From: Acrocarpospora phusangensis
Lineage (GTDB): Bacteria; Actinomycetota; Actinomycetes; Streptosporangiales; Streptosporangiaceae
Direction: 5' to 3'
Length of the DNA stretch: 64,000 bases
Assembly (NCBI RefSeq): GCF_016862995.1
Contig: NZ_BOOA01000001.1
Location: 186,001 to 250,000, forward strand
Both the position numbers and the translations under genes were made by a program. Under the pieces are notes generated by a model. It searched no databases and was not told where the DNA came from. It worked only from the letters and a program-made list of their open reading frames with translations. Below, piece by piece: positions 41,879 through 64,000 of this stretch. The stretch's first letter is position 1. Every line of letters starts with the position of its first letter.

Positions 41879-42312
41879 GCCGTCGGCGGGGTCTGCCGTT
41901 CTCCTCGGTGGTGACGGCGCTCGCCGGGTTCATCCTGCTCTGGTTCACGGTCCCCGGAATCGGCCCCGCGGTACGCGCCGCGCGGGCCGACGGGGTCTCC
42001 GGCGTCTTCACCGCCAGAGAGCTGGTCTGCGTCCAGCATCCCGGGCACGAGAGCTGCACCTGGACGGGCGACTTCCTGGCCGCCTCGGGGACGGCCCGCG
42101 AACGCGTCTCCCTGTACGGCAGCGACCGGGAGACCATGCTGGCCGGCGCGACCACCCCGGCCGTGGACATCGGCAGGACGTACTGGGTCTACGGTCCCGG
42201 CGGGTCCAACGAGTGGGTGTTCACGGGGCTGCTGCTCCTGTTGGGGGCGGGACTGCTGGGGTACTCGGCGTTCGCGGCCCGGGGGGTGGTGCGGCCGAGC
42301 ACGCCGGCATGA
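41875..42312 (+). CDS. Two-helix membrane protein with extracytoplasmic loop
   Basis: A 145-residue protein: N-terminal helix (VVTALAGFILLWFTVPGIG), a loop of about 75 residues with two Cys (CVQHPGHESC) that could form a disulfide, and a C-terminal helix (WVFTGLLLLLGAGLLGYSAF). It overlaps the preceding His-rich protein gene by ATGA and the convergent MFS gene by 92 bases. Function unknown. Confidence 0.6.
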   Translation: MSRRRGLPFSSVVTALAGFILLWFTVPGIGPAVRAARADGVSGVFTARELVCVQHPGHESCTWTGDFLAASGTARERVSLYGSDRETMLAGATTPAVDIGRTYWVYGPGGSNEWVFTGLLLLLGAGLLGYSAFAARGVVRPSTPA

Positions 42313-43450
42313 ACAGGGCCAGCGCGGCCCCGGCGGCGATCAGCCCGGCCACCAGCCCGAGGGCGGGCCGCGCGGCGGCCAGGTAGTCGCCGTCCCCCAG
42401 TAGCGCGCCGATCACGAACGCCCCGGCCGCGCCGCCGAGCTGGCGCGCGGTGTTCAGCGTGCCCGACGCGACGCCCGCCAGCAGCGGCGGGATCGGGCGC
42501 AGCCCTTCGACGGTCGCCGGCGCGAAGGCCAGGCCCATGCCGACGCCGATGAGGGCCAGCGGGAGCAGGAACGTGGCCGCGGTCGAGGTGAGGAAGGCCA
42601 GGCCGAGCACGCCCAGCGCGTACAGGGTGAGGCCGGAGGCGAGGGGCAGCCGGCCGCCGACCTTGTCGGCCAGTTTGCCGGACAGGGGGGCCAGGGCGGT
42701 GAGCGCCAGCGTCATGGGCAGGGCGGTCACGCCGGACATCAGCGGGCTCATGCCGAGGACGGTCTGCGTCTGGATGACGTAGACGAGGAGCAGGCCGTAC
42801 AGCGAGAACGACGTGATGCCGGTGATCGCGACGGCCAGGGTGAAGGGGCGGTGCCGGAACAGGCCGGGCACGGCCGTGACGCGGTGCGGGCGCGGCGGGC
42901 GCAGGTCCGGGATGAGGCGCAGCGCGAGCGGCAGCGCGGCCAGGCCGACCGGCAGGTTGATCAGGAAGACCGACTGCCAGCCGAACCGGGTGACGAGCAG
43001 GCCGCCGAAGGTCGGGCCGCCGACGGAGGCGACCCCGGCCACGGCGGTGAAGATGCCGAGGGCGAGGCCGCGCCGGTCCGCCGGGAAGATCGCCGAGATG
43101 AGCGCGAGGGCCTGCGGCACCAGCGCCGCCGCGCCGACGCCCTGCGCGACCCTGGCCGCGACCAGCAGGCCGGGCTCGGCGGCGAGCGCGCAGAGCAGCG
43201 ACGCGCCGGTGAAGACGGCCAGGCCCGCCGCGAACACGTTGCGGGGGCCGAACAGGTCGCCCACCCGGCCGAAGACGATCAGCAGGGACGCGAACGCGAG
43301 CAGGTACCCGTTGAGGATCCAGACGATCTGGCCGACGCCCGCCCCCAGCGAGGTCATGATGGCCGGAGCGGCCGTGTTCACGATCGTGGTGTCGACCAGG
43401 ATCAGGAAGTTGGCCACGCAGAGCACCGCGAGAGCCCGCCAGGGGTTCAT
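42221..43450 (-). CDS. MFS exporter (DHA2-like, shortened to about 12 helices)
   Basis: A 409-residue drug:H+ antiporter-like protein. Helix 1 reads NFLILVDTTIVNTAAPAI and the A-motif is GRVGDLFGPRNVF, both as in the 14-helix DHA2 group. However, after helix 6 (VFLINLPVGLAALPLAL) the chain goes directly to GLFRHRPFTLA, the start of helix 9 in that group, so two central helices are missing. It may export the product of the neighbouring cluster or another toxic compound. ATG 43450 behind GGAGGG. It lies 45 bases after the AhpD-like gene, likely the same transcript. Confidence 0.78.
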   Translation of the reverse strand: MNPWRALAVLCVANFLILVDTTIVNTAAPAIMTSLGAGVGQIVWILNGYLLAFASLLIVFGRVGDLFGPRNVFAAGLAVFTGASLLCALAAEPGLLVAARVAQGVGAAALVPQALALISAIFPADRRGLALGIFTAVAGVASVGGPTFGGLLVTRFGWQSVFLINLPVGLAALPLALRLIPDLRPPRPHRVTAVPGLFRHRPFTLAVAITGITSFSLYGLLLVYVIQTQTVLGMSPLMSGVTALPMTLALTALAPLSGKLADKVGGRLPLASGLTLYALGVLGLAFLTSTAATFLLPLALIGVGMGLAFAPATVEGLRPIPPLLAGVASGTLNTARQLGGAAGAFVIGALLGDGDYLAAARPALGLVAGLIAAGAALALFMPACSAAPPPGPRTPSTPAVPPPTGAAAP

Positions 43451-43495
43451 GTCCCTCCAAAGCCAGCGCTTGTCACATCGGCAGCGGGGACCCGC

Positions 43496-44422
43496 TCAGG
43501 AGAGGCCGGCGCGAGCGCGGGCCGCCACCATGCTCGCCCAGGCGGTGAGCTCCAGCAACGCCCGGTCTCCCGGCTCGCGCTCCCGGAACTCGGCCACCGC
43601 CGATCCGGCCTGGTAGGAGGCCATCGCGGTGAGCAGGGCGAGCCGGCCGGCGGGCCGGTGCCCTGAATCGAGCACGGCCACCGCGTCGTCCGTCCAGTGC
43701 CGGCTCAGCCCGGGCGCGGCGCCGTCCCACTTGGCGACCTCGGCCGTGACCAGCTCCCGCACCGGCTCCGGCACCGAGCGTTCGCCCGCCTGGGAGACGG
43801 CCGCGGTCGCCCGGGCGACCGCGCCCGCCACGTGCGCGCTGTCCTCGGCCCAGCGCAGCTCGTCCGGGAGCGGCGCCGCCGGCAGCAGCCGGAGCGACTC
43901 GCCCGGCGGCCGCGGCCGGCGCGCCGACGCCCCCATCATGGTGCCGAGGACGCGCAGCGCGCCGCCGCGCACGGCCCCGGGCACCTCGGGCGGGAGTGGG
44001 GATTCGCCGAGGAACACGTTGACCATGCGATTGAGGTAGTGGAACGTCAGCCGCGTTCCCGTGACCTCGGGTCCCGGCTCCGGCATCCCCGGGACCGGCC
44101 CGCCGAGCCCGCGCAGGGTCGCGCCGTGCACGTCCACGCAGTACGGGCAGGCGTTGGCCCGGGACACCTCGGTGGCCACCAGCTCCTTGGCCGCGCGCGG
44201 CACGAGCCCCCGGGCGAGCAGGGACTCGCGCAGCAGCATCCACACCCCGGCCATCACCTCCGGCGCCGCCGAGTGCAGCGCCACCGGCGGGGCCAGCATC
44301 CCGAAGTCACGTTCCACCTGGGCGTACACGTCCGCCACCAGACCCCTCGCCGCCCCTGGCGGTACCGGCGTGACATGCCGGACCTGGGCGAGGGACCTGC
44401 GCAACGCCTTCCGGACGACCAC
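43496..44422 (-). CDS. AhpD-like / carboxymuconolactone decarboxylase family protein
   Basis: A 308-residue all-helical protein. The AhpD core motif is seen in VATEVSRANACPYCVDVHGATLRGLG (about 85-110) with the redox CPYC pair and the downstream His. A second, degenerate helical repeat follows in the C-terminal half (LVTAEVAKWDGAAPGLSRHW) without the CxxC. Members act as peroxidase reductants or isomerase-like enzymes. The GTG start lies 4 bases after the stop of the FAD oxidoreductase gene, so it belongs to that operon; a redox role in product maturation or self-protection is possible. Confidence 0.72.
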   Translation of the reverse strand: MVVRKALRRSLAQVRHVTPVPPGAARGLVADVYAQVERDFGMLAPPVALHSAAPEVMAGVWMLLRESLLARGLVPRAAKELVATEVSRANACPYCVDVHGATLRGLGGPVPGMPEPGPEVTGTRLTFHYLNRMVNVFLGESPLPPEVPGAVRGGALRVLGTMMGASARRPRPPGESLRLLPAAPLPDELRWAEDSAHVAGAVARATAAVSQAGERSVPEPVRELVTAEVAKWDGAAPGLSRHWTDDAVAVLDSGHRPAGRLALLTAMASYQAGSAVAEFREREPGDRALLELTAWASMVAARARAGLS

Positions 44423-44426
44423 CGGA

Positions 44427-45743
44427 CTAGGCGTTCCGGCCCGCGCCCGCGGCGACGCGTTCCATCATGTCCGGGGCGAACAGCGTCTCCACCGGCTCGA
44501 TGAGCCCGGCCACCATCATGAACGCGGCGGTGAGGGCGCCGTCGTTCCTGGCCGCCTCCCGCAACCGGTCCATGTACGCGTTGGCCATCTGCACCTGCTC
44601 GGTCCGCTCCCCCTCCACGCCGGGGTAGCTGAGGTCGCCGCCGGCCGCGACCCCCCAGGGCGCCTCGATGACCTTGGCCACGTCGGTGAAGAACGCCCTG
44701 GCGTCCGGCAGGCCGCCGTGCTTGAGGTGCTCGCGCAGGGTGAGGCCCTCCAGGGCGGCGACCGTCATGCCCTGGCCGTACACCGGGTTGAAGCTGCACA
44801 CGCCGTCGCCGACCACGAGCAGGCCCAGCGGGAAGCGGCTCAGCCGCTCGTAGTGCTTCCACACGCTGGCCGGGTAGCGGAAGGCCACCCGCTCGTCCAG
44901 CAGGGTCGCGTCGTGCACGGCCTCGTAGATGTCCGGCACCGGCAGCGACTTGACAAAGGCCAGGTGCCCCTCCGGGTCGGTGGGGGCCTGGTCGCCCAGC
45001 ATGCCGGTGAGCGAGAGCAGGTAGCGGTCGTTCAGCCGGGAGAAGAACGCGCCGCGCGGGTTGTCCGGCGTGGCCACGCAGAGGATGGCCATGTCCTCGC
45101 CGAGCACGTTCTCGCGCAGCCGGTAGTGGCAGGTGGTGTAGGACAGGCCGATCTTGAAGCGCTCCTCCTCGGGGCGCGGGTAGCCCATCTCGGCCAGCCA
45201 GGCGGGCGTACGGGAGCCGCGGCCGGTGGCGTCCACCACCAGGTCGGCGGTGATCTCCCGCTCCGCGCCCTCGCCCTCGGGCGCGATCTTGACGCCGGTG
45301 ATCCGGCTCCGGTCCGCCGTCACCGTGAGGGAGAGGATGACGTGGTGCTCCAGGAACGTGACATTGGGCAGCGCCCGCACCCGGTCCCGCACGGCGCTCT
45401 CCAGCTCCGGCCGGGTGGCCGAGATGACCTTCAACCCGGTCTCGGCCGGCTGGAGCCTGCGGCCGTTGAAGTACCAGCGCAGGTTGACGCCCATGTCGCC
45501 CATGGGGATGCCGGCGTCGGCCAGCTCCCGGGTGAGCCCGGGGAACATGCCCTCCAGGACCTCCTGGCCCTTGGCCAGCAGGCCGTGCGCGTGGCCGCCC
45601 TGCGGTACGCCCCGGCGCGGCTCGTCCACCCCGGCCAGCTGGTCACGGTCCACCAGCAGGACTTCCTCGAATTGCTCCGACAGCACTCTGGCGGCCACCA
45701 GTCCGGCCATCCCGCCGCCCAGCACCACCGCGCGGTTCCGCAT
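44427..45743 (-). CDS. FAD-dependent oxidoreductase/monooxygenase
   Basis: A 438-residue flavoprotein: FAD motif VVLGGGMAGLVAARVLSE and LLVDRDQL at the N-terminus, QGGHAHGLLAKGQEVLE, the DG-like VVDATGRGSRTPAWL, and the C-terminal FAD motif LLVVGDGVCSFNPVYGQGMTVAALEG. The architecture is that of aromatic hydroxylase/geranylgeranyl-reductase-type enzymes. Halogenase tryptophan motifs are absent. It lies between a flavin hydroxylase-type gene and the AhpD-like gene in one operon at the cluster margin and may oxidise a polyketide intermediate. Confidence 0.75.
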   Translation of the reverse strand: MRNRAVVLGGGMAGLVAARVLSEQFEEVLLVDRDQLAGVDEPRRGVPQGGHAHGLLAKGQEVLEGMFPGLTRELADAGIPMGDMGVNLRWYFNGRRLQPAETGLKVISATRPELESAVRDRVRALPNVTFLEHHVILSLTVTADRSRITGVKIAPEGEGAEREITADLVVDATGRGSRTPAWLAEMGYPRPEEERFKIGLSYTTCHYRLRENVLGEDMAILCVATPDNPRGAFFSRLNDRYLLSLTGMLGDQAPTDPEGHLAFVKSLPVPDIYEAVHDATLLDERVAFRYPASVWKHYERLSRFPLGLLVVGDGVCSFNPVYGQGMTVAALEGLTLREHLKHGGLPDARAFFTDVAKVIEAPWGVAAGGDLSYPGVEGERTEQVQMANAYMDRLREAARNDGALTAAFMMVAGLIEPVETLFAPDMMERVAAGAGRNA

Positions 45744-45754
45744 AGTCCGCTCCT

Positions 45755-46927
45755 CTAGAGGTAGAAGGTATTGGGCGGCATCCCGCAGAGGATGCGGCCG
45801 TAGAGCTCCCGGTTGGTGTCCGGATGCATGAGCGCGTGCAGGTTGACCGCCTGCATGTCCCGCTGGATGCGCTGCATCGGCACGTCGTTGTAGATGGACG
45901 AGCCGCCGCTCGCCGTGGTGAGCAGGTCCACCGCCCGCTTGGCCAGGTCGCAGACCGCGCCCATGTCGGCGCGGGCCCTGGCCCGCTCCTCGGGCGTCCA
46001 CTCCGTACCGGACTTCTCGTCCACCTGGCCGGCCAGCCGGAGCGCGTGGAACTCGGCCTCGTCGATCAGGAGCGACGCCTCGGCCACCTGGAAGTGGGTG
46101 AGCGGGGCCTCCCGCTGGCTGGTGTAGGCGGTGTAGGTGATGTGCCGGTCGGGCAGCCGCTCGAAGAACGCGTCCCAGGCGCCCTTGGCCATGCCGACCA
46201 CGGTGCCCACCGAGGAGGCCGAGGCCACCGGGAGCAGCGGGTTGCGGTAGACGGCGCTCTCCGCGTTGAGCTTGGAGGCGTACTGCTCGTGCAGGATGCC
46301 GCCCAGGGGCAGGATGCGCTCGGCCGGGATGAAGACGTCCTGGGCGATCGTGGTGATGCTGCCGGTGCCGCGCAGGCCCGAGGTGTGCCAGTCGTCCACG
46401 AGCTGCAGGTCCGACAGCGGCGCCAGGGCCATGATCGGCTGGTGGCCCTCCGGGGTGGGGGTGACCGCGACGATCACCTGCCAGGTGCTGTGCCGGGCGC
46501 CGCTCATGAAGCTCCACTTGCCGTTCAGCACCGAACCGCCATTGCCCGGTACGGCCATGCCGGTCGGGCTGAGCGTGCCGCACAGCCGGGTGTCCGGGGA
46601 GTCGAAGACCTCGTCCTGCACCGCGTCGGGGAACATCGAGGCCATCCACGACGTGATCCACCAGACCGAGGCGACCCACGAGGTGGAGCCGTCGCCGCGG
46701 CCGAGTTCGGACGCCACCCGGACCATCGTGCGGGCGTCGCTCTCGTAGCCGCCGTACCGGGCGGGGACGCGCATCCGGAAGATCCCGGCGTCGCGCAGCG
46801 CGTCGAGCGAGTCGGGGGCCAGCACTCTGCTGTCCTCGGTGGCGAGCGCGTGGGACCGCAGCAGCGGAACCAGGTCCGCGGCGCGCTGGACGAGCTCTTC
46901 CTGGGCTGGCGCTTGGGCGTGTTTCAC
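45755..46927 (-). CDS. Acyl-CoA dehydrogenase-fold flavin hydroxylase (two-component monooxygenase)
   Basis: A 390-residue protein of the group D flavin monooxygenase type (HpaB/HsaA-like), which uses reduced flavin supplied by a separate reductase. Features: MRVPARYGGYESDARTMV, WVASVWWITSWMASMF, SGLRGTGS and the C-terminal ASGGSSIYNDVPMQRIQRDMQAVNLHALMHPDTNRELYGR. It is a clear paralogue of the protein encoded at 53200-54384. A flavin reductase lies in the PKS operon at 62168. Its transcript starts after a hairpin that isolates it from the epoxide hydrolase gene. Confidence 0.8.
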   Translation of the reverse strand: MKHAQAPAQEELVQRAADLVPLLRSHALATEDSRVLAPDSLDALRDAGIFRMRVPARYGGYESDARTMVRVASELGRGDGSTSWVASVWWITSWMASMFPDAVQDEVFDSPDTRLCGTLSPTGMAVPGNGGSVLNGKWSFMSGARHSTWQVIVAVTPTPEGHQPIMALAPLSDLQLVDDWHTSGLRGTGSITTIAQDVFIPAERILPLGGILHEQYASKLNAESAVYRNPLLPVASASSVGTVVGMAKGAWDAFFERLPDRHITYTAYTSQREAPLTHFQVAEASLLIDEAEFHALRLAGQVDEKSGTEWTPEERARARADMGAVCDLAKRAVDLLTTASGGSSIYNDVPMQRIQRDMQAVNLHALMHPDTNRELYGRILCGMPPNTFYL

Positions 46928-46964
46928 CCGGGCCTCCTAATAATTCCGAATAACGGATGCATCG

Positions 46965-47085: not shown

Positions 47086-48249
47086 TCAGGCGCGCAGGGA
47101 CCGGCCGAAGGCGCGGACGTCGGAGACGTACAGGTCGGGCTCCTCCATGGCGGCGAAGTGGCCGCCGCGCGGGAGCTCGCTCCAGTGGCTGATGGTGGGG
47201 ACCAGGCGGTCCGCCCAGGACCTGATCGGCGCGGTGGCGTCGCCGGCGAACACGGCCACGCCGACGGGCGCGCTGACCGGCCAGGGGCCGCCCCACTTGG
47301 CCACCACGTTGGAGGCGGTGCGGTCGGTGGTCTCGTAGTAGAGGTGGCCGGAGGAGATGGCGGTGCGGGTGAACCAGTAGAGCGCGACGTTGGTGAGGAG
47401 CTGGTCCCGGTCCACGGCGTCCTCGGGGGCCTTCTCCGCGTCGGTCCAGTCCATGAATCTTTCAACGATCCAGGCGAGCTGGCCGACGGGCGAGTCCGTC
47501 AGGGCGTAACCGAGCGTGTTCGGCCGGGTGGCCTGGAGCTTGAAGTACGCCGACATCTCCTGGTCGAAGTTGAGCAGCTTGCCGAGGCCGGCCATCTCCT
47601 GCGGGGTGAGCGCGGCCATGTCCGCCGGGTCGCCGCTGGGGAAGGTGACCAGCATGTTCACGTGCACGCCGATGACGTTCTCCGGCGCCACCTGGGCCAG
47701 CTCGAAGGAGATCATCATGCCCCAGTCGCCGCCCTGGGCCACGTACCGCTGGTAGCCGAGGCGGCGCATCAGCTCGGCCCAGGCGCGGGCGACCCGCCAG
47801 GAGTCCCAGCCGGTCTCGGCGATCGGGCCGGACAGGCAGAAGCCGGGCAGCGACGGGATGACGACGTGGAAGGCCTGGGAGGGGTCGCCGCCGTGCGCGC
47901 GGGGGTTGGTGAGGGGGCCGATCACGTCCAGGAACTCGGCCACGGAGCCGGGCCAGCCGTGGGTGATGATGAGCGGGGTGGCGTCGGGCTCGGGCGAGCG
48001 CACGTGGATGAAGTGCACGTTGGCGCCGTCGATCTCGGTGACGAACTGGGGGTGCTCGTTGAGCCTGGCCTCGGCGGCCCGCCAGTCGAAGCCGGTCCGC
48101 CAGTACTCGGCCAGCTCCTGCAGGTAGTCGAGGGGGACGCCGCGGCTCCAGCCGGCGCCGGGCGGCTCGGCGGGCCATCGGGTCCTGGCCAGCCGGTCGT
48201 GCAGGTCGTCCAGATCGGCCTGCGGGATTTCAATGCGAAAAGGACGCAT
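47086..48249 (-). CDS. Epoxide hydrolase (EHN-type, SgcF/NcsF-like)
   Basis: A 387-residue alpha/beta-hydrolase: N-terminal EHN domain ([49 protein letters not shown]), oxyanion [10 protein letters not shown], nucleophile Asp in [15 protein letters not shown], and the C-terminal [14 protein letters not shown] with the catalytic His. Enzymes of this type open an epoxide on the enediyne core or its precursor in C-1027 and neocarzinostatin pathways, which suits the neighbourhood. ATG 48249 is the usual family start; an in-frame ATG at 48276 adds nine residues. Confidence 0.85.
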
Positions 48250-48343
48250 TTCCTGCCACCTTCCAGAATAGGCCATGACATTTCGGGCATCGCCTATTCA
48301 TCGTCGGCCCGGCAAGGCCGCGACGCATCTCCTGAAATGCCGT

Positions 48344-49330
48344 TCAGCCGACGGCGGCGTACTCCATCGGAAGTCCGAATGAACCGAACAGCTCAGGGGA
48401 GAAGAAAACCGACACACGGCGCACGAATCCGGCGCGCAGGCTGAGCACGTGCATGGCGTAGGCCCGGTGCGCGTTCGCGTCCTCGCGGAGGTAGAAGGCG
48501 AACGCGGGCTGCCCGTTGGCCCGGGTCGGGACCATGAGCGTGTCGCCGGGCCCGGCCGGGCAGTGGAGGGCGATCAGGCGCCCGATCGCGGCGCGCCCGG
48601 TGAACCAGGCCGCGAACGGCGGCATCTCCCAGACCGCGTCCTCGTCGAGCAGCCGCATCAGCGCGGCCACGTCGGCGCTCTCCATCGCGGCGGCCCACCG
48701 GTCCAGCAGCTCGCGCTGGTCCCTGCGGGCGGGCTCGGAGTAGTCGTCGTCCGCCGACACCTCGCCGAGCTGCGCGCGGGCCCGCTGCAGCATGCTGTTG
48801 ACCGCCGCCGTCGTGGTGTCCAGCAGTTCGGCCACCTCGCCCGCCCGCCACTCGAAGACGTCGCGCAGCAGCAGCACGGCGCGCTGCCGGGGCGGCAGGT
48901 GCTGGAGCGCGGCGGCCATCGCCAGCCGCACGGTCTCCCGGGAGCCGACGATGGCGGCCGGGTCCACGCACTCGGGGCGCATCAGCGCGTCCGGCAGCGG
49001 CTGGAGCCACGGGATCTCCGGCTGGGCCGGCGGCAGTTGCTCCGGGTCCTCGCAGGGGCCGCCGAGCCCGGTGGGCATCGGCCGCCGGTTCCGCTGCTCG
49101 ACCGCGGTCAGGCAGGCGTTGGTGGCGATCCGGTAGAGCCAGGTACGGATCGACGAGCGCCCTTCGAACTGCTCATAGGCCCGCCACGCCCGCAGGTACG
49201 TCTCCTGGACCAGGTCCTCCGCCTCGTCCACCGACCCCAGGATGCCGTAGCAGTGGGCCAGCAGCTCGCGCCGGTACGGATCGGCCAGACGGGTGAAGTC
49301 GCGCTCACGATCTACCACACGATCTGCCAT
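48344..49330 (-). CDS. ECF sigma factor with C-terminal SnoaL-like domain
   Basis: A 328-residue sigma-70 family protein of the TIGR02960 (SigG-like) type. Region 2 is at 10-75 (LLAHCYGILGSVDEAEDLVQETYLRAWRAYEQFEGRSSIRTWLYRIATNACL), region 4 at about 140-195 (LQHLPPRQRAVLLLRDVFEWRAGEVAELLDTTTAAVNSMLQRARAQL), and a SnoaL/NTF2-like domain at about 210-320 that in such factors modulates activity in place of an anti-sigma factor. No anti-sigma gene is adjacent. It is divergent from the ABC exporter genes, which might be a target. Confidence 0.85.
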   Translation of the reverse strand: MADRVVDRERDFTRLADPYRRELLAHCYGILGSVDEAEDLVQETYLRAWRAYEQFEGRSSIRTWLYRIATNACLTAVEQRNRRPMPTGLGGPCEDPEQLPPAQPEIPWLQPLPDALMRPECVDPAAIVGSRETVRLAMAAALQHLPPRQRAVLLLRDVFEWRAGEVAELLDTTTAAVNSMLQRARAQLGEVSADDDYSEPARRDQRELLDRWAAAMESADVAALMRLLDEDAVWEMPPFAAWFTGRAAIGRLIALHCPAGPGDTLMVPTRANGQPAFAFYLREDANAHRAYAMHVLSLRAGFVRRVSVFFSPELFGSFGLPMEYAAVG

Positions 49331-49487
49331 CCGACACCCCTTGCTCCGGGCGGCCAAGACTGTCAGGTCCCACCGTAATCATCCTTCCCCGGCTTGTCCC
49401 TACCTGATCTTCAGCCGGGCCGATGAGTTTTAGACGGTTGTCTGGTCTGTACATGTGGAGTCGGAACCGGCGGGAACGGGAGGTGGC

Positions 49488-55667: not shown

Positions 55668-56060
55668 TCAGGCCGCGGTCGGGGTGTTCTGGTAGGCGGC
55701 GATCAGCCAGCCCTCGTCCTTCTTGGTCAGCACCCAGGTCGCCCGGATCTCCCGTTCGGGGGTGACCTTCTCGTCGCCCGGGTGCAGCACGCCGCCCTGG
55801 GTGACGATCACGGCCACGTCGTCGCTGAGGTAGCGCAGGCTGAGCGGGTCGCCGTGCACCCGGGTGCCCTTGAACGGGCCCGCGTACGCGGCGGTCATGA
55901 AGTCGCGGATCTCGGCCCGGCTCTTCAGGTAGACGCCGGGGAGGATCAGGCTCGCGTCCTCGGTGCAGGCGGCCGCGAAGGCGTCGCCGTCGTTCTTGGC
56001 CCAGGCGGCGACGATCCGGCCGGGAGCCTGTTCCGCACCTCGGGATGGGGCAGTGGTCAT
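55668..56060 (-). CDS. SgcJ/EcaC-type NTF2-like protein
   Basis: A 130-residue SnoaL/NTF2-fold protein (IVAAWAKNDGDAFAAACTEDASLILPGVYLKSRAEIRDFMTAAYAGPFKGTRVHGDP ... REIRATWVLTKKDEGWLIAAYQNTP). The match is to the SgcJ/EcaC group; SgcJ belongs to the C-1027 enediyne cluster and homologues recur in enediyne clusters, where they affect polyene/enediyne core formation. ATG 56060 follows AAAGGC. A GC hairpin separates it from the upstream GMC gene. Confidence 0.8.
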   Translation of the reverse strand: MTTAPSRGAEQAPGRIVAAWAKNDGDAFAAACTEDASLILPGVYLKSRAEIRDFMTAAYAGPFKGTRVHGDPLSLRYLSDDVAVIVTQGGVLHPGDEKVTPEREIRATWVLTKKDEGWLIAAYQNTPTAA

Positions 56061-56108
56061 TGCTCTTGCCTTTCGGTGGGGTTGTGTATTCGACGTTGCC
56101 ATCCGTGA

Positions 56109-56163: not shown

Positions 56164-57819
56164 TCAGTCCCGCACGAGGAGCGGGAGCACCGCGTTGCGC
56201 GCCGAGGTGGCGCCGTCGGGGGCGGGCGCGCCGTACACCACGTTCACGCCGCGGGCCCGGGCCGCCGCGACGATGCCGGGCATCGCCCGCTCGGCCAGCG
56301 CGGCGATGGTGAGCGCCGGGTTGACGGTCAGCGCGCCGGGCACGGCCGATCCGTCGGTGACGAAGATGCCCGGGTGGCCGCGCAGCTCGTGCCGGTCGTC
56401 CAGGGCCGAGGTGGCCGGGTCGTCGCCGATCCGGCAGGACGCCAGCGGATGCACGGTGTACGCGCCGACCACGTCGTTGGTCCACGGCATCACCCGGGAC
56501 AGGCCGTCGCGCTCCATGATGTCCTTCACGTCGGCGTCGGCCATGGCCCAGCCGCGCAGCGTGTTGGGGGTCGGGTCGTAGCGGATCGGGCCCCGGCCCA
56601 GCATCTGCTGGGAGATGCGCATCGCGTTCCCGGTGGCCGGCGGCGGGCCGAAGACGCCCTCGTTGTCGTCTTCGGTCATCGCGAAGATGGTCAGCCAGGA
56701 CTGCCAGCGCCGGACGATCTCCTTCTTCTCCGCGCCGAACCAGGTCGGCCCGGTCGCGCCGGGCACCTGCGCCAGGATGGTGCCGAACCCGGGCGGGAAG
56801 TAGAGCTGCTCCAGCGAGTAGCGGGTGTACTCGGGCCGGGAGCCGTCGAGACGGTCCCAGCTGGCCACGCACGGGCCCTTCCCGATCTGGGACGCCGCGT
56901 ACGGCACCCCGTCGGACTTGGCCAGCCCGAGCAGGTCGCGCACCCGGTCCTCGTCGAGAATCGCCGTGTTCAGGCGCTCCCCGTTGCCGGAGAAGTACCG
57001 CCCGACCGCGTGCGGCATCTTCCCGAGCTCGGGCTCGGACCGCTGGAGGATCACCGGCGTGGCGCCGGCCCCCGCCGCCAGGATGACGATCTTGGCGTCG
57101 ATGGTGCCGCCGCCCACGGTGATCCGGTAGTCGGAGTCGTCGATGACGTTGTAGTGCACCCGGTAGCCGCCGTCGGCGTTGCGGGTCAGCTTCTGCACCT
57201 CGTGCATGGGCCGGATCCGGGCGCCGTGCGCGATCGCGGCGGGCAGGTAGTTGAAGAGCAGCGAGCGTTTGGCGTCGAACTTGCAGCCGGCCATCATCCA
57301 GTTGCAGTTGGTGCACTTGCTCCCGTCGATGGCCACCGGCACCGGGTTGGCGGTGCGCCCGGCGTGCGCGCAGGCCGCCGCGAACAGGCCGCCCGAGTAG
57401 GTGACGTCGTTCCAGTCCTGGCGGGTGACCGGGAGGGACTCGGTGACCCGGTCGTACCAGGGGTCGAGCGTGTCCCTGGTCACCGAGGCCGGCCACATCC
57501 GGCGGCCGATCGAGCCCTGCCGGTCGAAGACGAACCGGGGGGCGCGCGGCATGGCGGCGAAGTACACCACGCTGCCGCCGCCGACGCAGTTGCCGCCGAG
57601 CAGGCTCATCCCGTCGCCGACCACGAAGTCGAAGATCCGCGTGTAGGAGGCGCCGAGCTTGAAGTCGTGGTCGAAGTCCTCGCCCTCCAGCCAGGGGCCG
57701 CGTTCGAGGACCAGCACGCTCGCCCCGCCCGCCGCCAGGTGGTAGGCGGCGATGGCGCCGCCGAACCCGCTCCCGACGACCAGGACGTCGACGCGCTCCG
57801 TGCCGTTGCTGTTGGTCAT
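56164..57819 (-). CDS. GMC-family FAD oxidoreductase (cholesterol-oxidase-like)
   Basis: A 551-residue flavoprotein: FAD motif VLVVGSGFGGAIAAYHLAAGG, GGNCVGGGSVVYFAAMPR in place of the GMC signature, a Cys cluster (KCTNCNWMMAGCKFD, about 190) and the C-terminal VHPLASCRIGDDP ... VTDGSAVPGALTVNPALTIAALAER with active-site His and Asn. It overlaps by ATGA the upstream gene for a small gluconate-dehydrogenase-subunit-3-like protein, so the two likely form a complex. It would oxidise an alcohol of the natural product. Confidence 0.85.
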   Translation of the reverse strand: MTNSNGTERVDVLVVGSGFGGAIAAYHLAAGGASVLVLERGPWLEGEDFDHDFKLGASYTRIFDFVVGDGMSLLGGNCVGGGSVVYFAAMPRAPRFVFDRQGSIGRRMWPASVTRDTLDPWYDRVTESLPVTRQDWNDVTYSGGLFAAACAHAGRTANPVPVAIDGSKCTNCNWMMAGCKFDAKRSLLFNYLPAAIAHGARIRPMHEVQKLTRNADGGYRVHYNVIDDSDYRITVGGGTIDAKIVILAAGAGATPVILQRSEPELGKMPHAVGRYFSGNGERLNTAILDEDRVRDLLGLAKSDGVPYAASQIGKGPCVASWDRLDGSRPEYTRYSLEQLYFPPGFGTILAQVPGATGPTWFGAEKKEIVRRWQSWLTIFAMTEDDNEGVFGPPPATGNAMRISQQMLGRGPIRYDPTPNTLRGWAMADADVKDIMERDGLSRVMPWTNDVVGAYTVHPLASCRIGDDPATSALDDRHELRGHPGIFVTDGSAVPGALTVNPALTIAALAERAMPGIVAAARARGVNVVYGAPAPDGATSARNAVLPLLVRD

Positions 57820-58382
57820 GCGGGGCTCCCCGATGAGGTCGTGCCCGGATGGAGGTCGGCCAGCGGTCGGCCGTAGGAGTACTCCGGGAACCGCCACAGC
57901 CCGTCGGCGTCCGGACGGGAGAAGCCCATCGCGGCCAGGCCGGGATGGCCGGCCGCCATCGCGTCGACGGTGTGCAGGTGGGCCCCGGTGTCGAAGGCCA
58001 TGTTGCTGAACAGGGCGACCAGGATCCAGATCTCCCGCTCCGGGTGGCTCGGCGAGGTCAGGTTCGCGATCAGCTCGGTCCGGTCCGCGAAGGACAGCCC
58101 GACCAGCGGCGGCAGCTCCGGGTCGGGGGTCAGGCCGCGCTCGGCGGCGTACGCGCGAGCGTGCTCGTTGAGCAGGTCCGCGAACGCGCCGAGTTCGGTG
58201 GCGATGCCGGTGGCCGGATCGCCCAGGAGTTCGAGCGCGCCGGCCGCGACGGCGCCGCCGCCGGAGGAGGCTCCGGCCACGGCGACGTCGTCCGGAAACC
58301 GCTTCTCACCGGGGACGATAGTGTCGGCGAACGCCTCTAACGTCAGTGTTTGGTGGGTTTGATGAGGTAAGTCGGGTCGCAT
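57816..58382 (-). CDS. DUF5987-like small subunit partner of the GMC oxidoreductase
   Basis: A 188-residue protein starting TLEAFADTIVPGEKRFPDDVAVAGAS, the form of gluconate 2-dehydrogenase subunit 3 and DUF5987 proteins, with a later helical part (LPPLVGLSFADRTELIANLTSP ... ILVALFSNMAFDTG). It has no Tat or Sec signal, so it acts in the cytoplasm. First gene of the operon; ATG 58382 behind GGGAGGAA; coupled to the GMC gene by ATGA. Confidence 0.72.
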   Translation of the reverse strand: MRPDLPHQTHQTLTLEAFADTIVPGEKRFPDDVAVAGASSGGGAVAAGALELLGDPATGIATELGAFADLLNEHARAYAAERGLTPDPELPPLVGLSFADRTELIANLTSPSHPEREIWILVALFSNMAFDTGAHLHTVDAMAAGHPGLAAMGFSRPDADGLWRFPEYSYGRPLADLHPGTTSSGSPA

Positions 58383-58639: not shown

Positions 58640-59578
58640 ATGATACGTGCGCCTGATTCTCCGGCAGGCGGGCGCGATGCACCCTGCCTGATTCAACTGG
58701 CGTCGCTGCGGCCCGCGGACTCGCCCCGGCTCTCGGGGGAGGACGCGGACCATCTCATCCGGCTCGCGGGCCTGGAGACCGCGTTGCCGCCGATCCTCGT
58801 GCACCGCCAGACGATGCGCGTGATCGACGGCATGCACCGGGTGCGGGCCGCCGCCATGCGCGGCCAGGACACCATCGAGGTGCGGTTCTTCGACGGCAGC
58901 GAGGCGGACGCGTTCCTCCGGGCCGTCCAGGAGAACGTGGCCCACGGGCTGCCGCTCTCGCTGGCCGACCGGAAGGCCGCCGCCGAGCGCATCATCGCCT
59001 CGCATCCCATGCTCTCCGATCGCGCCATCGCGGCGTGCGCCGGGCTGGCCGCCAAGACGGTCGGCGCGGTACGCCGGCGTTCGACCGCGGAATCGCCGCA
59101 GTCGAACGAGCGGCTGGGCGTGGACGGGCGGCTGCGGCCGCTCGACGGCGGGGAGGGCAGGCGGCGGGCCTCGGAGGTGATCGCGGCCAACCCGGACGCG
59201 TCCATCCGCGAGATCGCCCGAGCGGCGGGGGTCTCCCTGGGCACCGCCCACGACGTGCGCCATCGGCTGCTCCGGGGCGCCGACCCGGAACGGCCGCGAC
59301 CGCCGCGAGCGGCGCCGGCGCCTCCCAGGCCGGAGCCGAAGGACTCCCCCAGCATCCTGCAGACCCTGCGGAAGGACCCCTCGCTACGGCTGACCGACCC
59401 CGGGCGTGAGCTGCTCAGGCTGCTGCACTCCCGGTCGATCGCCGTCGGCGACTGGCAGGACCTGGTGGACGCGGTGCCGGCGCACTGCGCGGACTCCGTG
59501 GCACAGCTGGCCCGCGACTGCGCCGAGGCGTGGGGGCAGTTCGCCACCGAACTCCAGCGCCGGGAGAATTCGGGCTGA
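58640..59578 (+). CDS. StrR/ParB-like pathway-specific activator
   Basis: A 312-residue StrR-family regulator: N-terminal ParB/sulfiredoxin-like domain (PPILVHRQTMRVIDGMHRVRAAAMRGQDTIEVRFFDG, about 50-90), NVAHGLPLSLADRKAAAERIIASHPMLSDRAIAACAGLAAKTVGAVRRRS with the HTH (about 105-155), then LGVDGRLRPLDGGEGRR and a second helical region. StrR-type proteins switch on antibiotic clusters (streptomycin, novobiocin, glycopeptides; SgcR1 in C-1027). ATG 58640 has GGAGGTGG upstream. It is divergent from the oxidoreductase operon, a plausible target. A StrR-type site lies inside its own coding region. Confidence 0.88.
   Translation: MIRAPDSPAGGRDAPCLIQLASLRPADSPRLSGEDADHLIRLAGLETALPPILVHRQTMRVIDGMHRVRAAAMRGQDTIEVRFFDGSEADAFLRAVQENVAHGLPLSLADRKAAAERIIASHPMLSDRAIAACAGLAAKTVGAVRRRSTAESPQSNERLGVDGRLRPLDGGEGRRRASEVIAANPDASIREIARAAGVSLGTAHDVRHRLLRGADPERPRPPRAAPAPPRPEPKDSPSILQTLRKDPSLRLTDPGRELLRLLHSRSIAVGDWQDLVDAVPAHCADSVAQLARDCAEAWGQFATELQRRENSG
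59079..59107. promoter_or_regulatory. StrR-type binding site inside the regulator gene
   Basis: GTTCGACCG (59079-59087), 11 bases, CAGTCGAAC (59099-59107). The published StrR consensus is GTTCGActG-N11-CaGTcGAAC; 17 of the 18 arm positions match and the spacer length is exact. Caution: the arms encode R-S-T and Q-S-N, and similar residues may be conserved in StrR proteins, so part of the match may follow from the protein. Confidence 0.55.
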
Positions 59579-59622
59579 TCAACGGCCCTGGGCGGTTTCA
59601 AACGCCGACGGTAAAACGCCCA

Positions 59623-59902: not shown

Positions 59903-59940
59903 CAAACGTCCGACTACATGTAGTCGCGAATGACGTTTTG
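59903..59940. promoter_or_regulatory. Nested palindromic operator upstream of the AraC-like gene
   Basis: CGACTACATGTAGTCG (59911-59926) is a perfect 16-bp palindrome, flanked by CAAACGTC (59903-59910) and GACGTTTTG (59932-59940), themselves inverted. It ends 17 bases before the ATG at 59958. AraC proteins more often use direct repeats, so this may be a site for another dimeric regulator. Confidence 0.6.
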
Positions 59941-59957
59941 GCCAAGGGGAAGCAGCA

Positions 59958-60728
59958 ATGGAAGAGGCCATCGAAAGAGCCGTCGGACGAGTTATTCAAA
60001 CCATGCATGAGAATCTCAGCGAGCAGTTGACAGTCGATGACATGGCTCGCACCGCGATGTTCAGCAAGTTCCACTTCTCCCGCGTCTTCCGTCAGGCCAC
60101 CGGGATCTCTCCCGGTCGGTTCCTGTCCGCGCTCCGGTTGCAGGAGGCCAAGCGGCTCCTCATCTCCACCTCGCTCAGCGTGGCCGACATCAGCAACCGG
60201 GTCGGGTACACGAGCGTGGGAACCTTCAGCTCGCGCTTCAAGAGCAGCGTGGGCATCGCCCCCACCACCTACCGGCAGTACGGCGGCTTCGCCACCCGCA
60301 TCGTGCCCGACAGCCGTTCGATCGGCGCGGAGATCCGGTCCTCCACCATCCAGGGCGAGGTCTGGGCGCCCTCGACGGCCAGGCTCGGCCTGATCTTCGT
60401 CGGGCTCTTCCCCACCTGCGTGCCCCAGGGCAGGCCGCTGCGGTGCACGGTGCTGCACAGCCCCGGCCCGTACCTGCTGGAGGATGTTCCTCCGGGCTCC
60501 TGGCATCTGCTCTCGCACGCGGTCTCCCCCGGGGAAGAGGAGATCATCGGTGACCCCTTCAGCCGAGCGCACGCGCCGTCGGTCGCCGGGGTCGGTCCGA
60601 TCACCATCGGTCCCGACGCCCGGATCACGACCGCCGACCTGCACCTCAGGCCGGCGCATCCTCTTGACCCACCTGTCCTGATGGCGCTGCTCGACGTACG
60701 GAAGGTCGCGCTCAGATCAGCCGGGTGA
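59958..60728 (+). CDS. AraC family regulator with N-terminal HTH
   Basis: A 256-residue regulator. Both AraC HTH motifs are at the N-terminus (LSEQLTVDDMARTAMFSKFHFSRVFRQATGISPGRFLSALRLQEAKRLL and VADISNRVGYTSVGTFSSRFKSSVGIAPTTYRQ, about 20-113), the reverse of the usual order. The C-terminal 140 residues (LGLIFVGLFPTCVPQGRPLRCTVL ... PGSWHLLSHAVSPGEE) are an unassigned beta-rich domain that may sense an effector. Next to a StrR-type gene it recalls the SgcR1/SgcR2 pair of C-1027. AAGGGG ribosome site. Confidence 0.82.
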   Translation: MEEAIERAVGRVIQTMHENLSEQLTVDDMARTAMFSKFHFSRVFRQATGISPGRFLSALRLQEAKRLLISTSLSVADISNRVGYTSVGTFSSRFKSSVGIAPTTYRQYGGFATRIVPDSRSIGAEIRSSTIQGEVWAPSTARLGLIFVGLFPTCVPQGRPLRCTVLHSPGPYLLEDVPPGSWHLLSHAVSPGEEEIIGDPFSRAHAPSVAGVGPITIGPDARITTADLHLRPAHPLDPPVLMALLDVRKVALRSAG

Positions 60729-60745
60729 CATGGGGGACGCACGAC

Positions 60746-60777
60746 GAGGCCACGGTCAAGGACGACCGTGGCCCCTC
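60746..60777. terminator. Bidirectional terminator between the AraC-like gene and the PKS operon
   Basis: GGCCACGGTC (60748-60757) and GACCGTGGCC (60764-60773) form a perfect 10-bp stem with a 6-base loop, extended by GAGG/CCTC with one bulged base. It lies between two convergent stops at 60728 and 60798. Confidence 0.85.
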
Positions 60778-60797
60778 CTATTTCAGCGCCTCATATG

Positions 60798-62171
60798 TCA
60801 GCTCCGCGGGGATACCGTCATGGGCAGGCCGTCCTTCATGCGCAGCGAGAGCATCGGCTCCGGCACGGCCTCGTAGCCGGGCACACGGCTCAGCCGCAGG
60901 TCCCTGGCCACCAGGGCGGTCACGAAGGCCGCCTCCATCATCCCGAGGTTGTTGCCCACGCAGAAGCGCGGCCCGGCCCCGAACGGGATGTAGGCGTAGC
61001 GCGGCCGTCCGGACTGCACGTCGGGATTGAACCGTTCCGGATCGAACCGCTCGGGCTCGCTCCAGAACTCCGGATGCCGGTGCAGCGTGTACGGGCACAC
61101 CAGCACGTCCGATCCCGCTGGAACGTGGTAGCCGCCGACCTCGTCGTCCGCGAGCGCCTGCCGGGTGAGGATCCACACCGGCGGGTACAGCCGCATGGCC
61201 TCCTCGATCACCATGGAGGTGTACCGCAGGCGGTGCAGGTCCTCGTAGACCGGCGCGCGGTCGCCCAGCACCTCCACCGCCTCCGCGTGCAGCCGCTCGG
61301 CCACCTCGGGGTTGCGGTCCAGCAGGTAGAACGTCCAGCCGAGGGTGCTGGCCGTGGTCTCGTGCCCGGCCAGCAGGAGCGTGATCAGCTCGTCGGTCAT
61401 GCGCTGCCGCCCGACCGCCGGGTCGTCCTCCGCCTCGGTGGACAGGATCAGCTTGGACAGCACGTCGTCGCCCCAGTCGCCGGCGCGCGTACGGCGCTCG
61501 GCCACCAGGCGGTCCACCACGTGCTGCAGCTCCTTGCGGGACTGCCGGAACCGCAGCTGCTTGGGCAGCGGCACCCACATCGGGACCGCGCCGAGCGTCA
61601 CCATCTCGAACATGGCCTGGTCCTGGACCGCCTCGAAGGCGTGCCCGACCCCGCCGTAGGCGCCCAGATCGGCGTCCAGCAGCGTACGGCCGAGCACGCC
61701 CAGGGTGAGCGCGGTCAGCTCCTCCACCACGTCGAAGGGGCCGGTCCTGGCGCGCAGCCGGCCGACCAGCGCGGCGGCCTCCTCGGCCACCACGCCGGCC
61801 TGGGCGGCGATGCGCTTGGCCTGGAAGGCCGGCTGGATCATCTTGCGCTGCTTGCGCCACAGGTCGCCCTCGCTGGTCAGCAGGCCGTCCCCGAGGGCGC
61901 GTTTGGCCTGCACCAGGCCGATGCCCTTGTGGTAGTTGGCGGCGTTGTCGGCGAGCACGTGCTTGGCGTGCTCGGGGTGGTTGAAGAAGTAGAGGGTCTT
62001 GGGGCCCATGGAGATCTTGACGGCGTCGCCGTACTGGTCGGCGGCGGCCCGCATCAGGGCGAGCCGGTCGGTGGCCAGTTTGACGAACAGCCCGGGCGCG
62101 GCCCGCCGGGGCGGCCCGGGCGGGACCGCCCGGGACCGCTGTCCGGACTGGCCGCCGGTCGTGGCGGTCAT
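60798..62171 (-). CDS. Cytochrome P450 in the enediyne PKS operon
   Basis: A 457-residue P450 of the longer CYP4/CYP102-like bacterial type: FVKLATDRLALMRAAADQYGDAVKI, I-helix LLLAGHETTAST, ExxR EEAMRLYPPVWILTRQA, PERF region, heme loop IPFGAGPRFCVGNNLGMMEA. It is the last gene of the PKS-thioesterase-flavin reductase operon, with an ATGA overlap to the reductase gene, so it probably oxidises an early core intermediate. ATG 62171 was chosen for that overlap. Confidence 0.9.
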   Translation of the reverse strand: MTATTGGQSGQRSRAVPPGPPRRAAPGLFVKLATDRLALMRAAADQYGDAVKISMGPKTLYFFNHPEHAKHVLADNAANYHKGIGLVQAKRALGDGLLTSEGDLWRKQRKMIQPAFQAKRIAAQAGVVAEEAAALVGRLRARTGPFDVVEELTALTLGVLGRTLLDADLGAYGGVGHAFEAVQDQAMFEMVTLGAVPMWVPLPKQLRFRQSRKELQHVVDRLVAERRTRAGDWGDDVLSKLILSTEAEDDPAVGRQRMTDELITLLLAGHETTASTLGWTFYLLDRNPEVAERLHAEAVEVLGDRAPVYEDLHRLRYTSMVIEEAMRLYPPVWILTRQALADDEVGGYHVPAGSDVLVCPYTLHRHPEFWSEPERFDPERFNPDVQSGRPRYAYIPFGAGPRFCVGNNLGMMEAAFVTALVARDLRLSRVPGYEAVPEPMLSLRMKDGLPMTVSPRS

Positions 62172-62686
62172 GTCCTCACCTCGCTCAGATCGCTCAGGTC
62201 TTCGCTCAGGTCGATGTGCCGGAACCTGCCGTTGAAGAACAGCAGCGCCTCCTCGGCCTCCTCGTCGTGGGAGAGCACCTTGCCGAGGAAGATGGTGTGG
62301 TCCCCGCCGTCGTACGAGCGCCAGATCTCGCACTCGAAGCGGGCGATGCTGGCGTTGAGCATCGGCGCGCCGGTGAGCGTGCCGGGGAACCAGTCCACGT
62401 CCTCGAACTGCTCCTGGCCGGGCACCCGCCAGCGGTTGGCGAAGTGCCTGGCCAGCCCCTCCTGGTCGGCCGCGAGCACGTTCACCCCGAAGGAGCCGGC
62501 GGCGGGCAGCATGCCGTGCATGATGGCGCCGCGGTCCACGCAGATCAGCACGAGCGGCGGATCCAGCGAGACGGAGGTGAAGGAGTTCGCGGTCATGCCG
62601 TGCGGGGCGGTCCCGCCGACGGTCACCACGGTGACGCCGGTGGCGAACCTCCCGAAGGCGCGGCGAAGGATCTTCTGTTCTGCCAT
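62168..62686 (-). CDS. Flavin reductase (short-chain FMN/FAD:NAD(P)H type)
   Basis: A 172-residue flavin reductase domain protein: RRAFGRFATGVTVVTVGGTAPHGMTANSFTSVSLDPPLVLICVDRG, SFGVNVLAADQEGLARHFA, CEIWRSYDGGDHTIFLGKVL. It would deliver reduced flavin to the two acyl-CoA dehydrogenase-fold hydroxylases encoded at 45755 and 53200. Its position inside the PKS operon ties reductase supply to core synthesis. 16 bases separate it from the thioesterase stop. Confidence 0.88.
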   Translation of the reverse strand: MAEQKILRRAFGRFATGVTVVTVGGTAPHGMTANSFTSVSLDPPLVLICVDRGAIMHGMLPAAGSFGVNVLAADQEGLARHFANRWRVPGQEQFEDVDWFPGTLTGAPMLNASIARFECEIWRSYDGGDHTIFLGKVLSHDEEAEEALLFFNGRFRHIDLSEDLSDLSEVRT

Positions 62687-62702
62687 GTCATTCCCCCGAG
62701 GG

Positions 62703-63140
62703 CTACGGCACGTAGGGTTGGAGCGCTCGAACCAGCGACTCGGGCACGCGGGCGGGCACGGTGCGGGTGTTGGGCCCCCGCATGCACGCCACCCGCTGCC
62801 GTCCCCGGGCGATCAGCGTCTCGCCGACGCCCAGGCCGCGGGCGTCGAGCTTGACGTAGTCGAAGCTGAATTCGAGCTGGGTCTGGGCCAGGTCGACCAG
62901 CCGCATCCGGATGGAGAGCTCGTCGAAGGCGGTGATCTCGGCGTAGAACTCGCAGTCCACCTTGAGCGTGAACAGCTTGAGGTCGTCCTGGAGCTCGCCG
63001 AGCACGTCCGGCGCGTTGGTCTTGAGGAACATCTCCCGGCAACGCCCCTGCCAGCGCAGGTAGTTGACGTAGTAGACGTTGCCGACGATGTTGGTCTCCT
63101 CGAAGCCGACCGTGTGCAGGTACTCGAAGTAGTTGCCCAC
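62703..63140 (-). CDS. Enediyne thioesterase (SgcE10/CalE7/DynE7 type)
   Basis: A 145-residue hot-dog-fold thioesterase. The N-terminus YFEYLHTVGFEETNIVGNVYYVNYLRWQGRCREMFL is the hallmark of enediyne thioesterases, which release the linear polyene from the PKS acyl carrier protein. GTG 63140 lies 2 bases after the PKS stop and gives the family length; the longer open frame only overlaps the PKS gene. Its presence right after the PKS gene is the standard order in enediyne clusters. Confidence 0.93.
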   Translation of the reverse strand: MGNYFEYLHTVGFEETNIVGNVYYVNYLRWQGRCREMFLKTNAPDVLGELQDDLKLFTLKVDCEFYAEITAFDELSIRMRLVDLAQTQLEFSFDYVKLDARGLGVGETLIARGRQRVACMRGPNTRTVPARVPESLVRALQPYVP

Positions 63141-63142
63141 GG

Positions 63143-64000
63143 TCAGCGCCCCTCGGCGAGCACGGCCAGGACCACGGGGTCCGCGTGGCCGCGCACACCG
63201 GTGACGAGGGTGGCGATCCTGAGCGGCCCGGACGCGAACACGACCCAGGGGTCGCGGCCGGCCCTGGCCAGGGTGAGCGGCGCGGCGGGGGTGAGCCCGG
63301 CCTTCTGCAGGCACTCGATCGCGGACCAGACGCGGGTGGCGGCCGTGTCGGGGCCGTCCCCGGTCTCGGCGGCGACCAGTTCGGCCAGCGCGGCGTGCCC
63401 GCCGAGCAGCCCGGCCCAGGTCTCGGCCGTGCGTTCGGCGACGGGTTCCAGGTCGCAGCCGAGCTGTCCCGCCGCGACGACGGCGAGCGTGAGCCCGGCG
63501 CCGTGCGCGGCCGACACCGTGCCGCCGTCGATCTCCGGCCGCCCGTCGGGGCGGTACCTGACCTCGACGGGGTGGCCGGCCGCGCGACCGGCGGCCAGCG
63601 CCGTCGTCGCCCGCCGGTCGCCGGCGTGCTCGGGGCCCGGCTCCACCGCCACGGCGACGTCCGCGCCGATCAGGTCGTCCAGCATGCGCTCCACGTACGG
63701 CCCGAGCAGCGCGGGCGCCCACGGGCCGCGCCCGTCGCCCTTGCGCACGGCCCGCAGCCGGAGCCCGTCCCAGCGCTCGACCGGCCTGCCGGTCCCGTCG
63801 CGTACGACGATGTCGTATATATACGTGTCGCCGTCGCGTTCCCGCTCCACCGCGCAGTACCGCATCGGCCCGGTGGCCGGGGTGGCGTGCACCCGTTCGA
63901 CGCCCTGTGGCAGCAGGGTGGCGTGCGGGACGCAGACCTGGTTGCCGTGCATCAGCGCGTCGCGCATGCCCGGGTCGCCGAGCAGCAGGTCGCCGGAGAG
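63143..64000 (-). CDS. Enediyne polyketide synthase (PKSE), C-terminal part only
   Basis: The frame is open to the window edge; only the last 285 residues are seen and the start lies beyond 64000. The visible part holds the end of the dehydratase domain (GDLLLGDPGMRDALMHGNQVCVPHATLLPQGVERV ... VERWDGLRLRAV) and the integral phosphopantetheinyl transferase domain (RPEIDGGTVSAAHGAGLTLAVVAAGQLGCDLEPV ... WSAIECLQKAG), with GCDLEPV supplying a metal-binding acid. PKSEs iteratively build the polyene that becomes the enediyne core and modify their own ACP with this transferase. The hallmark order PKSE then thioesterase is kept. Confidence 0.93.
   Translation of the reverse strand, partial: LSGDLLLGDPGMRDALMHGNQVCVPHATLLPQGVERVHATPATGPMRYCAVERERDGDTYIYDIVVRDGTGRPVERWDGLRLRAVRKGDGRGPWAPALLGPYVERMLDDLIGADVAVAVEPGPEHAGDRRATTALAAGRAAGHPVEVRYRPDGRPEIDGGTVSAAHGAGLTLAVVAAGQLGCDLEPVAERTAETWAGLLGGHAALAELVAAETGDGPDTAATRVWSAIECLQKAGLTPAAPLTLARAGRDPWVVFASGPLRIATLVTGVRGHADPVVLAVLAEGR

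Follow-up and report, generated by a model that had tools for sequence, protein, structure and literature searches.

We have found that a stretch of Acrocarpospora phusangensis DNA, together with the sequence to its right, very probably carries a complete gene cluster for an enediyne, a natural product that cleaves DNA, of the nine-membered type. The window (the whole stretch of 64,000 nt that was analysed) covers positions 186001–250000 of contig 1 in a genome of 9.1 Mb and 219 contigs; the contig runs on for 27,017 bases to the right of the window, and all coordinates below are window coordinates. The predicted cluster has a size of ∼47 kb (∼36.0 to 83.2 kb), reaching left to ∼36.0 kb and extending ∼19 kb beyond the window end. 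An earlier note, made from the letters of the window, had read positions 42221 to 64000 as the left flank of an enediyne cluster; this reading is supported by a complete enediyne polyketide synthase (PKSE), an E5, an E4 and two DUF1702 proteins, all completed or encoded beyond position 64000. Gene names come from Pfam and NCBIfam profile scans unless stated otherwise, and the reference for comparison is the C-1027 (lidamycin) cluster of Streptomyces globisporus C-1027 (plasmid SGLP1, NZ_CP013739.1).

The enediyne cassette

Yan et al. (2016, PMC5181780) give the common enediyne cassette as E3, E4, E5, E and E10. This five-gene cassette is complete in A. phusangensis, with its core genes on the minus strand. 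The PKSE gene (63143–68878, minus strand) encodes 1911 residues; the portion within the window (63143–64000) is its 3′ end, with the end of the dehydratase (DH) domain and the phosphopantetheinyl transferase (PPT) part. The ketosynthase (KS), acyltransferase (AT), acyl carrier protein (ACP) and ketoreductase (KR) domains, whose presence beyond position 64000 had been set in advance as a test of the enediyne reading, were all four found there. Pfam detects KS, AT, ACP, KR and DH in an open frame, while the PPT part, which has no Pfam match, is read from the alignment to the anchor sequences described below. In this alignment the KS Cys/His, the AT Ser, the ACP Ser and the KR and DH motifs are intact, as in the C-1027, calicheamicin (CAL) and dynemicin (DYN) anchors, which gives a KS-AT-ACP-KR-DH-PPT enzyme with intact catalytic motifs.

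The end of the PKSE gene (63143) lies, as the earlier note had it, 2 bases from the start of the gene for the enediyne thioesterase E10 (62703–63140, minus strand). The best PDB matches of the thioesterase are 4i4j (240 bits, E-value 9e-71), CalE7 (210 bits, 9e-62) and two DynE7 chains (122 bits, 2e-34), along with two chains whose only name is ‘Thioesterase’ (121 and 118 bits); the next matches drop to 35 bits (an uncharacterized protein) and 24 bits (a hypothetical protein), so that the alternative of a non-enediyne hot-dog enzyme, raised by the earlier note, finds no support among them. The E-value of the match to 4i4j, which we take to be SgcE10, excludes a chance match. The 4i4j sequence is 100% identical in S. 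globisporus JCM 4378 and 99% identical in strain CB02366, and the thioesterase is present in all five Acrocarpospora genomes examined. In the same operon, as had been proposed, follow an SgcE6-like flavin reductase (62168–62686, minus strand; PF01613; 58% to C-1027 SgcE6) and a cytochrome P450, here P450 (b) (60798–62171, minus strand; PF00067), whose genes overlap by 4 bases.

On the other side of the PKSE gene, where members of the E3, E4 and E5 families had been expected, these were found at 68875–72809. E5 (68875–69882) was called by position and by homology to the C-1027 gene, its Pfam match being sub-threshold only. It is followed by E4 (69888–71831; UnbV/FG-GAP), a first DUF1702 copy (71835–72809) that groups with E3 of C-1027, and a second DUF1702 copy (72847–73842) that belongs to the C-1027 E2 clade. 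That the synthase is instead a type I iterative polyketide synthase making a polyene or a polyunsaturated fatty acid-like lipid, with no enediyne involved, is extremely unlikely: it does match PfaA and other type I models, all below their cut-offs, but E3, E4, E5, E10 and E2 are all adjacent, DynE8 chains are among its PDB matches, and its neighbours are the same as in the C-1027 cluster.

Ring class and accessory genes

The prediction rule of Yan et al. (PMC5181780) is that E2 indicates a nine-membered and R3 a ten-membered enediyne; strain CB02366 is described there as a proven C-1027 producer. Anchors were chosen by their thioesterases: genome G425 (CAL; 98% to CalE7), genome G422 (DYN; 100% to DynE7), and S. 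globisporus JCM 4378 and CB02366 (by their matches to 4i4j). Two further genomes, G432 and G562, have thioesterases 91% identical to CalE7 and 76% identical to DynE7. Among 11 genomes, two DUF1702 copies are present in both Acrocarpospora, CB02366, CB02261 and Salinispora pacifica CNR114, three in Haloechinothrix, and one in G425, G422, G562, G432 and Micromonospora haikouensis. The second A. phusangensis copy is placed with E2 of C-1027 with an SH-aLRT value of 100, in a quick tree that holds no labelled R3 sequences.

Nine accessory genes are common to this cluster and C-1027, and at the thresholds used none of the nine has a match in the 100 kb around the CAL or DYN anchors. They encode a carboxymuconolactone decarboxylase/AhpD-like protein (CMD), a FAD epoxidase, an HsaA-type monooxygenase, an epoxide hydrolase, an SgcJ-like protein, a GMC oxidoreductase, a DUF5987 protein, the E6 reductase and a TIGR03084 protein. 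It is on the E2-type DUF1702 protein and this nine-membered accessory set that we assign the cluster, probably, to the nine-membered type; the earlier note had held that ring size could not be told from the flank, and the assignment draws on sequence beyond it. For a ten-membered cluster of the calicheamicin or dynemicin type one could cite CalE7, which ranks second among the PDB matches of the thioesterase, and the 58% identity of the PKSE to the calicheamicin anchor. We nevertheless consider such a cluster very unlikely, given the E2-clade DUF1702 protein, the nine accessory genes without a match in the 100 kb around the CAL and DYN anchors, and a FastTree tree of PKSE sequences in which both these anchors fall outside a large group holding the Acrocarpospora clade and C-1027.

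Several points weigh against a complete nine-membered-type cluster. The thioesterase is also 66% identical to CalE7 and, taken alone, is not decisive for ring class. The class depends on a published rule and on anchors, and for the CAL and DYN anchors the identification comes solely from the percent identity of their thioesterases to PDB chains. The product is predicted here from the genes. Finally, two of the five Acrocarpospora contigs end just past E2, and the GT2a glycosyltransferase gene of these genomes is on another contig.

The accessory genes between 42 and 61 kb largely bear out the gene calls of the earlier note: Pfam or NCBIfam support was obtained for the SgcJ-like protein, the epoxide hydrolase, the second P450, the two flavin hydroxylases and the GMC, FAD, ABC and AraC genes. 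On the minus strand are an MFS exporter (42221–43450; PF07690), CMD (43496–44422; PF02627; 48% to C-1027), the FAD epoxidase-like oxidoreductase (44427–45743; best PDB matches Lsd18/LasC and MonCI) and HsaA-type flavin monooxygenase 1 (45755–46927; PF08028). HsaA-type flavin monooxygenase 2 (53200–54384, minus strand; PF08028) lies further right; both HsaA-type oxygenases have the acyl-CoA-dehydrogenase fold, and each scores 237 bits with NF045629, below the model cut-off. The SgcF-like epoxide hydrolase (47086–48276, minus strand; 62% to C-1027) has an EHN domain and matches PDB 5f4z (571 bits) and 4i19 (501 bits), the latter presumably SgcF. Next come a sigma-70 family factor with a SnoaL-like domain (48344–49330, minus strand; TIGR02960, 391 bits) and the two halves of an ABC exporter (49455–51329 and 51326–53110, plus strand; PF00005 in each). 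P450 (a) (54404–55648, minus strand; PF00067) is 70% identical to a Haloechinothrix protein and 76% to one in genome G616, the nearest C-1027 P450 being at 32%. It is followed on the same strand by the SgcJ-like protein of the SgcJ/EcaC family (55668–56102; TIGR02246 above cut-off; PDB 4ovm and 4i4k, both named SgcJ), the GMC oxidoreductase (56164–57819; PF00732/PF05199) and the DUF5987 protein (57816–58382; PF19449, 294 bits; 66% to C-1027). Two regulators are on the plus strand, one AraC-type (59958–60728; PF12833; 51% to C-1027) and one StrR-like (58640–59578). The StrR-type call, also made in the earlier note, rests on a C-1027 homologue (48%) annotated ‘streptomycin biosynthesis operon regulator’, Pfam giving only a marginal helix-turn-helix match.

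Extent, relatives and membrane protein M

The left edge, placed at 42221 in the earlier note, moves outward by ∼6 kb to near 36.0 kb, because the TIGR03084 protein, a carboxyltransferase, a short-chain dehydrogenase/reductase (SDR) and the membrane protein M also adjoin PKSE clusters elsewhere. A PKSE scan of GTDB genomes yielded 203 relatives, the best 80 of which were kept as named PKSE loci. The metal-binding, MDMPI-like TIGR03084 protein (36012–36803, minus strand; 302 bits; 54% to its C-1027 homologue) is matched in 43 of 85 loci (the 80 named loci and five short own-genus loci). The acyl-CoA carboxylase carboxyltransferase (38465–40162, minus strand; PF01039, 602 bits, scan started from 40126) has homologues at 74–78% beside the PKSE clusters of G578, G659 and G616, and the SDR of the NAD-dependent epimerase/dehydratase family (40159–41166, minus strand; PF01370) is matched at 55–65% in 10 of the named PKSE loci, with a match of 110 residues in an eleventh; both genes likely belong to the cluster. 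Membership is uncertain for two genes between them and the edge, a short carotenoid-oxygenase-like (RPE65) protein (36888–37757, minus strand; PF03055; 38% in G616) and a TetR-type regulator (37805–38461, plus strand; PF00440/PF13305; 78% in G616), both of which are kept in G002–G004.

Over the stretches fetched, gene order is kept in all four other Acrocarpospora genomes, the NACHT gene excepted. Left of 36.0 kb it continues in G002 and not in G003 (∼5 kb examined), the G004 stretch there being <2 kb and the G001 stretch having none. Just left of the cluster is a free-standing condensation-domain protein (34271–36019, plus strand), for which, of the stretches fetched, only that of G002 has a homologue (73–75%), and beyond it a GH9 cellulase with CBM2 and CBM4_9 domains (30860–33991, plus strand).

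To the right of E2 lie a NACHT NTPase (73956–76160), an alpha/beta hydrolase (ABH, 76205–77152), GT2a (77240–78466), an ABC exporter half (78515–80293), a second ABC half (80290–82218), named through a 72–73% homologue in G616 that also matches the first ABC protein, and the glycosyltransferase GT2b (82218–83243). The ABH, GT2 and ABC genes are contiguous with the cassette in three of the five Acrocarpospora genomes. GT2a homologues (E-value ≤1e-60) are present in 10 of 200 genomes of the family; GT2a shares a contig with E10 in the window genome (G000), G002, G003 and G616, and in the other six it is on a different contig or there is no E10. A. phusangensis and A. corrugata have the NACHT gene within the enediyne operon, with E2 on one side and the hydrolase on the other; A. 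macrocephala does not have it there. Two paralogous ABC exporter pairs (49455–53110 and 78515–82218) flank the core in Acrocarpospora, one pair being present in G616. Right of the cluster, at ∼84–90 kb, are purA, vWA and NUDIX genes (read by eye) and an amidohydrolase (Pfam); A. macrocephala has a different block between GT2b and these genes.

A decayed or silent cluster with no product, which we regard as highly unlikely, would fit its compactness, since Yan et al. (PMC5181780) describe 80–120 kb as a frequent size of enediyne clusters. The PKSE frame is, however, open with motifs intact, the protein is 85–90% identical to those of four other Acrocarpospora species, and the compact gene set is kept in a second genus. 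Outside the genus, among the best 80 of 203 relatives, the closest PKSE (74%) is that of Streptosporangium carneum. In the same 80 loci, flanks of ≤10 kb hold E10 in 77 cases, E6 in 76, P450 (b) in 73, AraC in 67, GMC in 60, DUF5987 in 59 and CMD in 54. Clades are cut at 90% on a 1-kb fragment in Yan et al. (PMC5181780); by this yardstick the cluster would stand apart from the clusters compared, with neocarzinostatin, kedarcidin, maduropeptin, sporolide and cyanosporaside outside the comparison. Enediyne clusters are common in the host family (E10 at E-value ≤1e-40 in 56 of 200 sampled genomes and 26 of 68 genera), and as such this cluster is otherwise ordinary. A literature search, with most subscription journals outside its scope, brought up nothing published on an enediyne cluster from Acrocarpospora.

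M (41315–41878, plus strand) is a membrane protein of 187 residues for which Pfam gives nothing above cut-off and neither NCBIfam nor the PDB sequences gave a match. Its C-1027 homologue WQO_RS34010 (68%), close to E2, is annotated ‘hypothetical protein’. In the 200 family genomes E10 is present in 56, M in 63 and both in 49 (Fisher p 3e-26, the genomes being related and not independent). The two genes are within 80 kb on one contig in 32 of the 49, ∼2 Mb apart on the same contig in two and on different contigs in 15, while 10 of the 14 genomes with M only carry DUF1702. M lies ∼1.6 kb from E10 in G672 and ∼4.3 kb from E3 in G674. Linkage of M to enediyne cassettes is seen with both ring types, but the protein is neither universal nor exclusive to them; its absence from many PKSE plasmid records and the copies existing away from cassettes count against a core role. 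A second copy in the window genome (contig 31:13498–14010) has no match to other cluster genes in the surrounding 40 kb. Eleven residues are invariant in 36 aligned M sequences (H22, H36, E39, H40, E72, H75, H111, H112, E114, H115 and H148). The AlphaFold2 model has four long helices (mean pLDDT 82.8), and its structural comparison established no fold relative. We advance, as a speculative and rather doubtful proposal, that M may be a recurrent, unrecognised enediyne component of both ring types, putatively a metalloenzyme of the membrane, to judge by the invariant His/Glu residues of its four predicted transmembrane helices, which would act on the polyene or polyyne as it is formed or else protect the membrane from it, and that the cluster shared by Acrocarpospora and G616 may be near the natural minimal set for a nine-membered core.

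Proposed pathway and comparison with known clusters

By analogy with known enediynes, the PKSE would charge its own ACP through the PPT domain and make a polyene iteratively, E10 would release it, and E3–E5 and E2 would help turn it into an enediyne precursor. The SgcE6-like reductase may supply the flavin oxygenases; the P450s, the GMC and DUF5987 proteins, the FAD epoxidase and the epoxide hydrolase would then close and oxygenate the core. Export of the product would fall to the MFS protein and the ABC pairs, and control of the cluster to the StrR, AraC and sigma-type regulators. Since neither an apoprotein nor any known peripheral pathway was found, the product is predicted to be a small, oxygenated core that the GT2 pair may glycosylate. 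To our knowledge, closure and oxidation of the nine-membered core are the subject of continuing work. A compact cluster in two genera, with neither chromoprotein nor C-1027 side-chain pathways, shortens the list of candidate core genes and is a smaller unit for transfer into a host; M would be a further candidate for a pathway step without an assigned enzyme.

For comparison with C-1027, 51 proteins picked from 70 rows of the annotated record were compared with the 34.0–84.3 kb region at an E-value of 1e-8, and 22 of them were matched. Weak among these are rfbB (31% to the SDR) and a second P450 (32% to P450 (a)), and one match, an MFS, covers 40%. The 29 proteins with no match there include the chromoprotein, aminomutase, AMP-binding, condensation, SgcD/SgcG, glycosyltransferase, methyltransferase and halogenase proteins, and, save for the rfbB match, the deoxysugar, beta-tyrosine and benzoxazolinate genes have no convincing counterpart in the region. 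The apoprotein domain PF00960 was found in none of the five Acrocarpospora genomes, with all three added Streptomyces genomes positive and the 14 built-in controls at zero. Shared with C-1027 are the PKSE (64%), E10 (77%), P450 (b) (66%), GMC (79%), FAD (63%), first HsaA (63%) and M proteins, as well as E2, E3, E4, E5, E6, DUF5987, AraC, StrR, the SgcJ-like protein, the epoxide hydrolase, CMD and TIGR03084. To these the Acrocarpospora cluster adds the ABC pairs, the GT2 pair and the sigma factor, which have no match in the C-1027 producer contig, together with the second HsaA enzyme and P450 (a), with its 32% relative only.

The calicheamicin and dynemicin anchors share the cassette and have an M homologue within 100 kb, but differ in their single DUF1702 gene and in having no match there for the nine accessory genes. 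In Haloechinothrix halophila the cassette is split, PKSE/E10/E6 lying ∼50 kb from E2–E5, with homologues of P450 (a), HsaA (65%) and the SgcJ-like protein (55%) beside the PKSE. Five other clusters of the family (G578, G596, G704, G701 and G659; 60 kb each) have no match for GT2a, GT2b, the ABC pairs, the sigma factor or the epoxide hydrolase, and in G596 the linked genes are spread over ∼90 kb. The G616 cluster (another genus of the Streptosporangiaceae; contig C47, 7.8–42.2 kb) holds 24 of the genes at 51–85% within 34 kb. It differs in its rearranged order, its one ABC pair instead of two and its lack of a StrR or MFS match, and shares GT2a, GT2b, an ABC pair, ABH, the sigma factor, P450 (a) and both HsaA enzymes.

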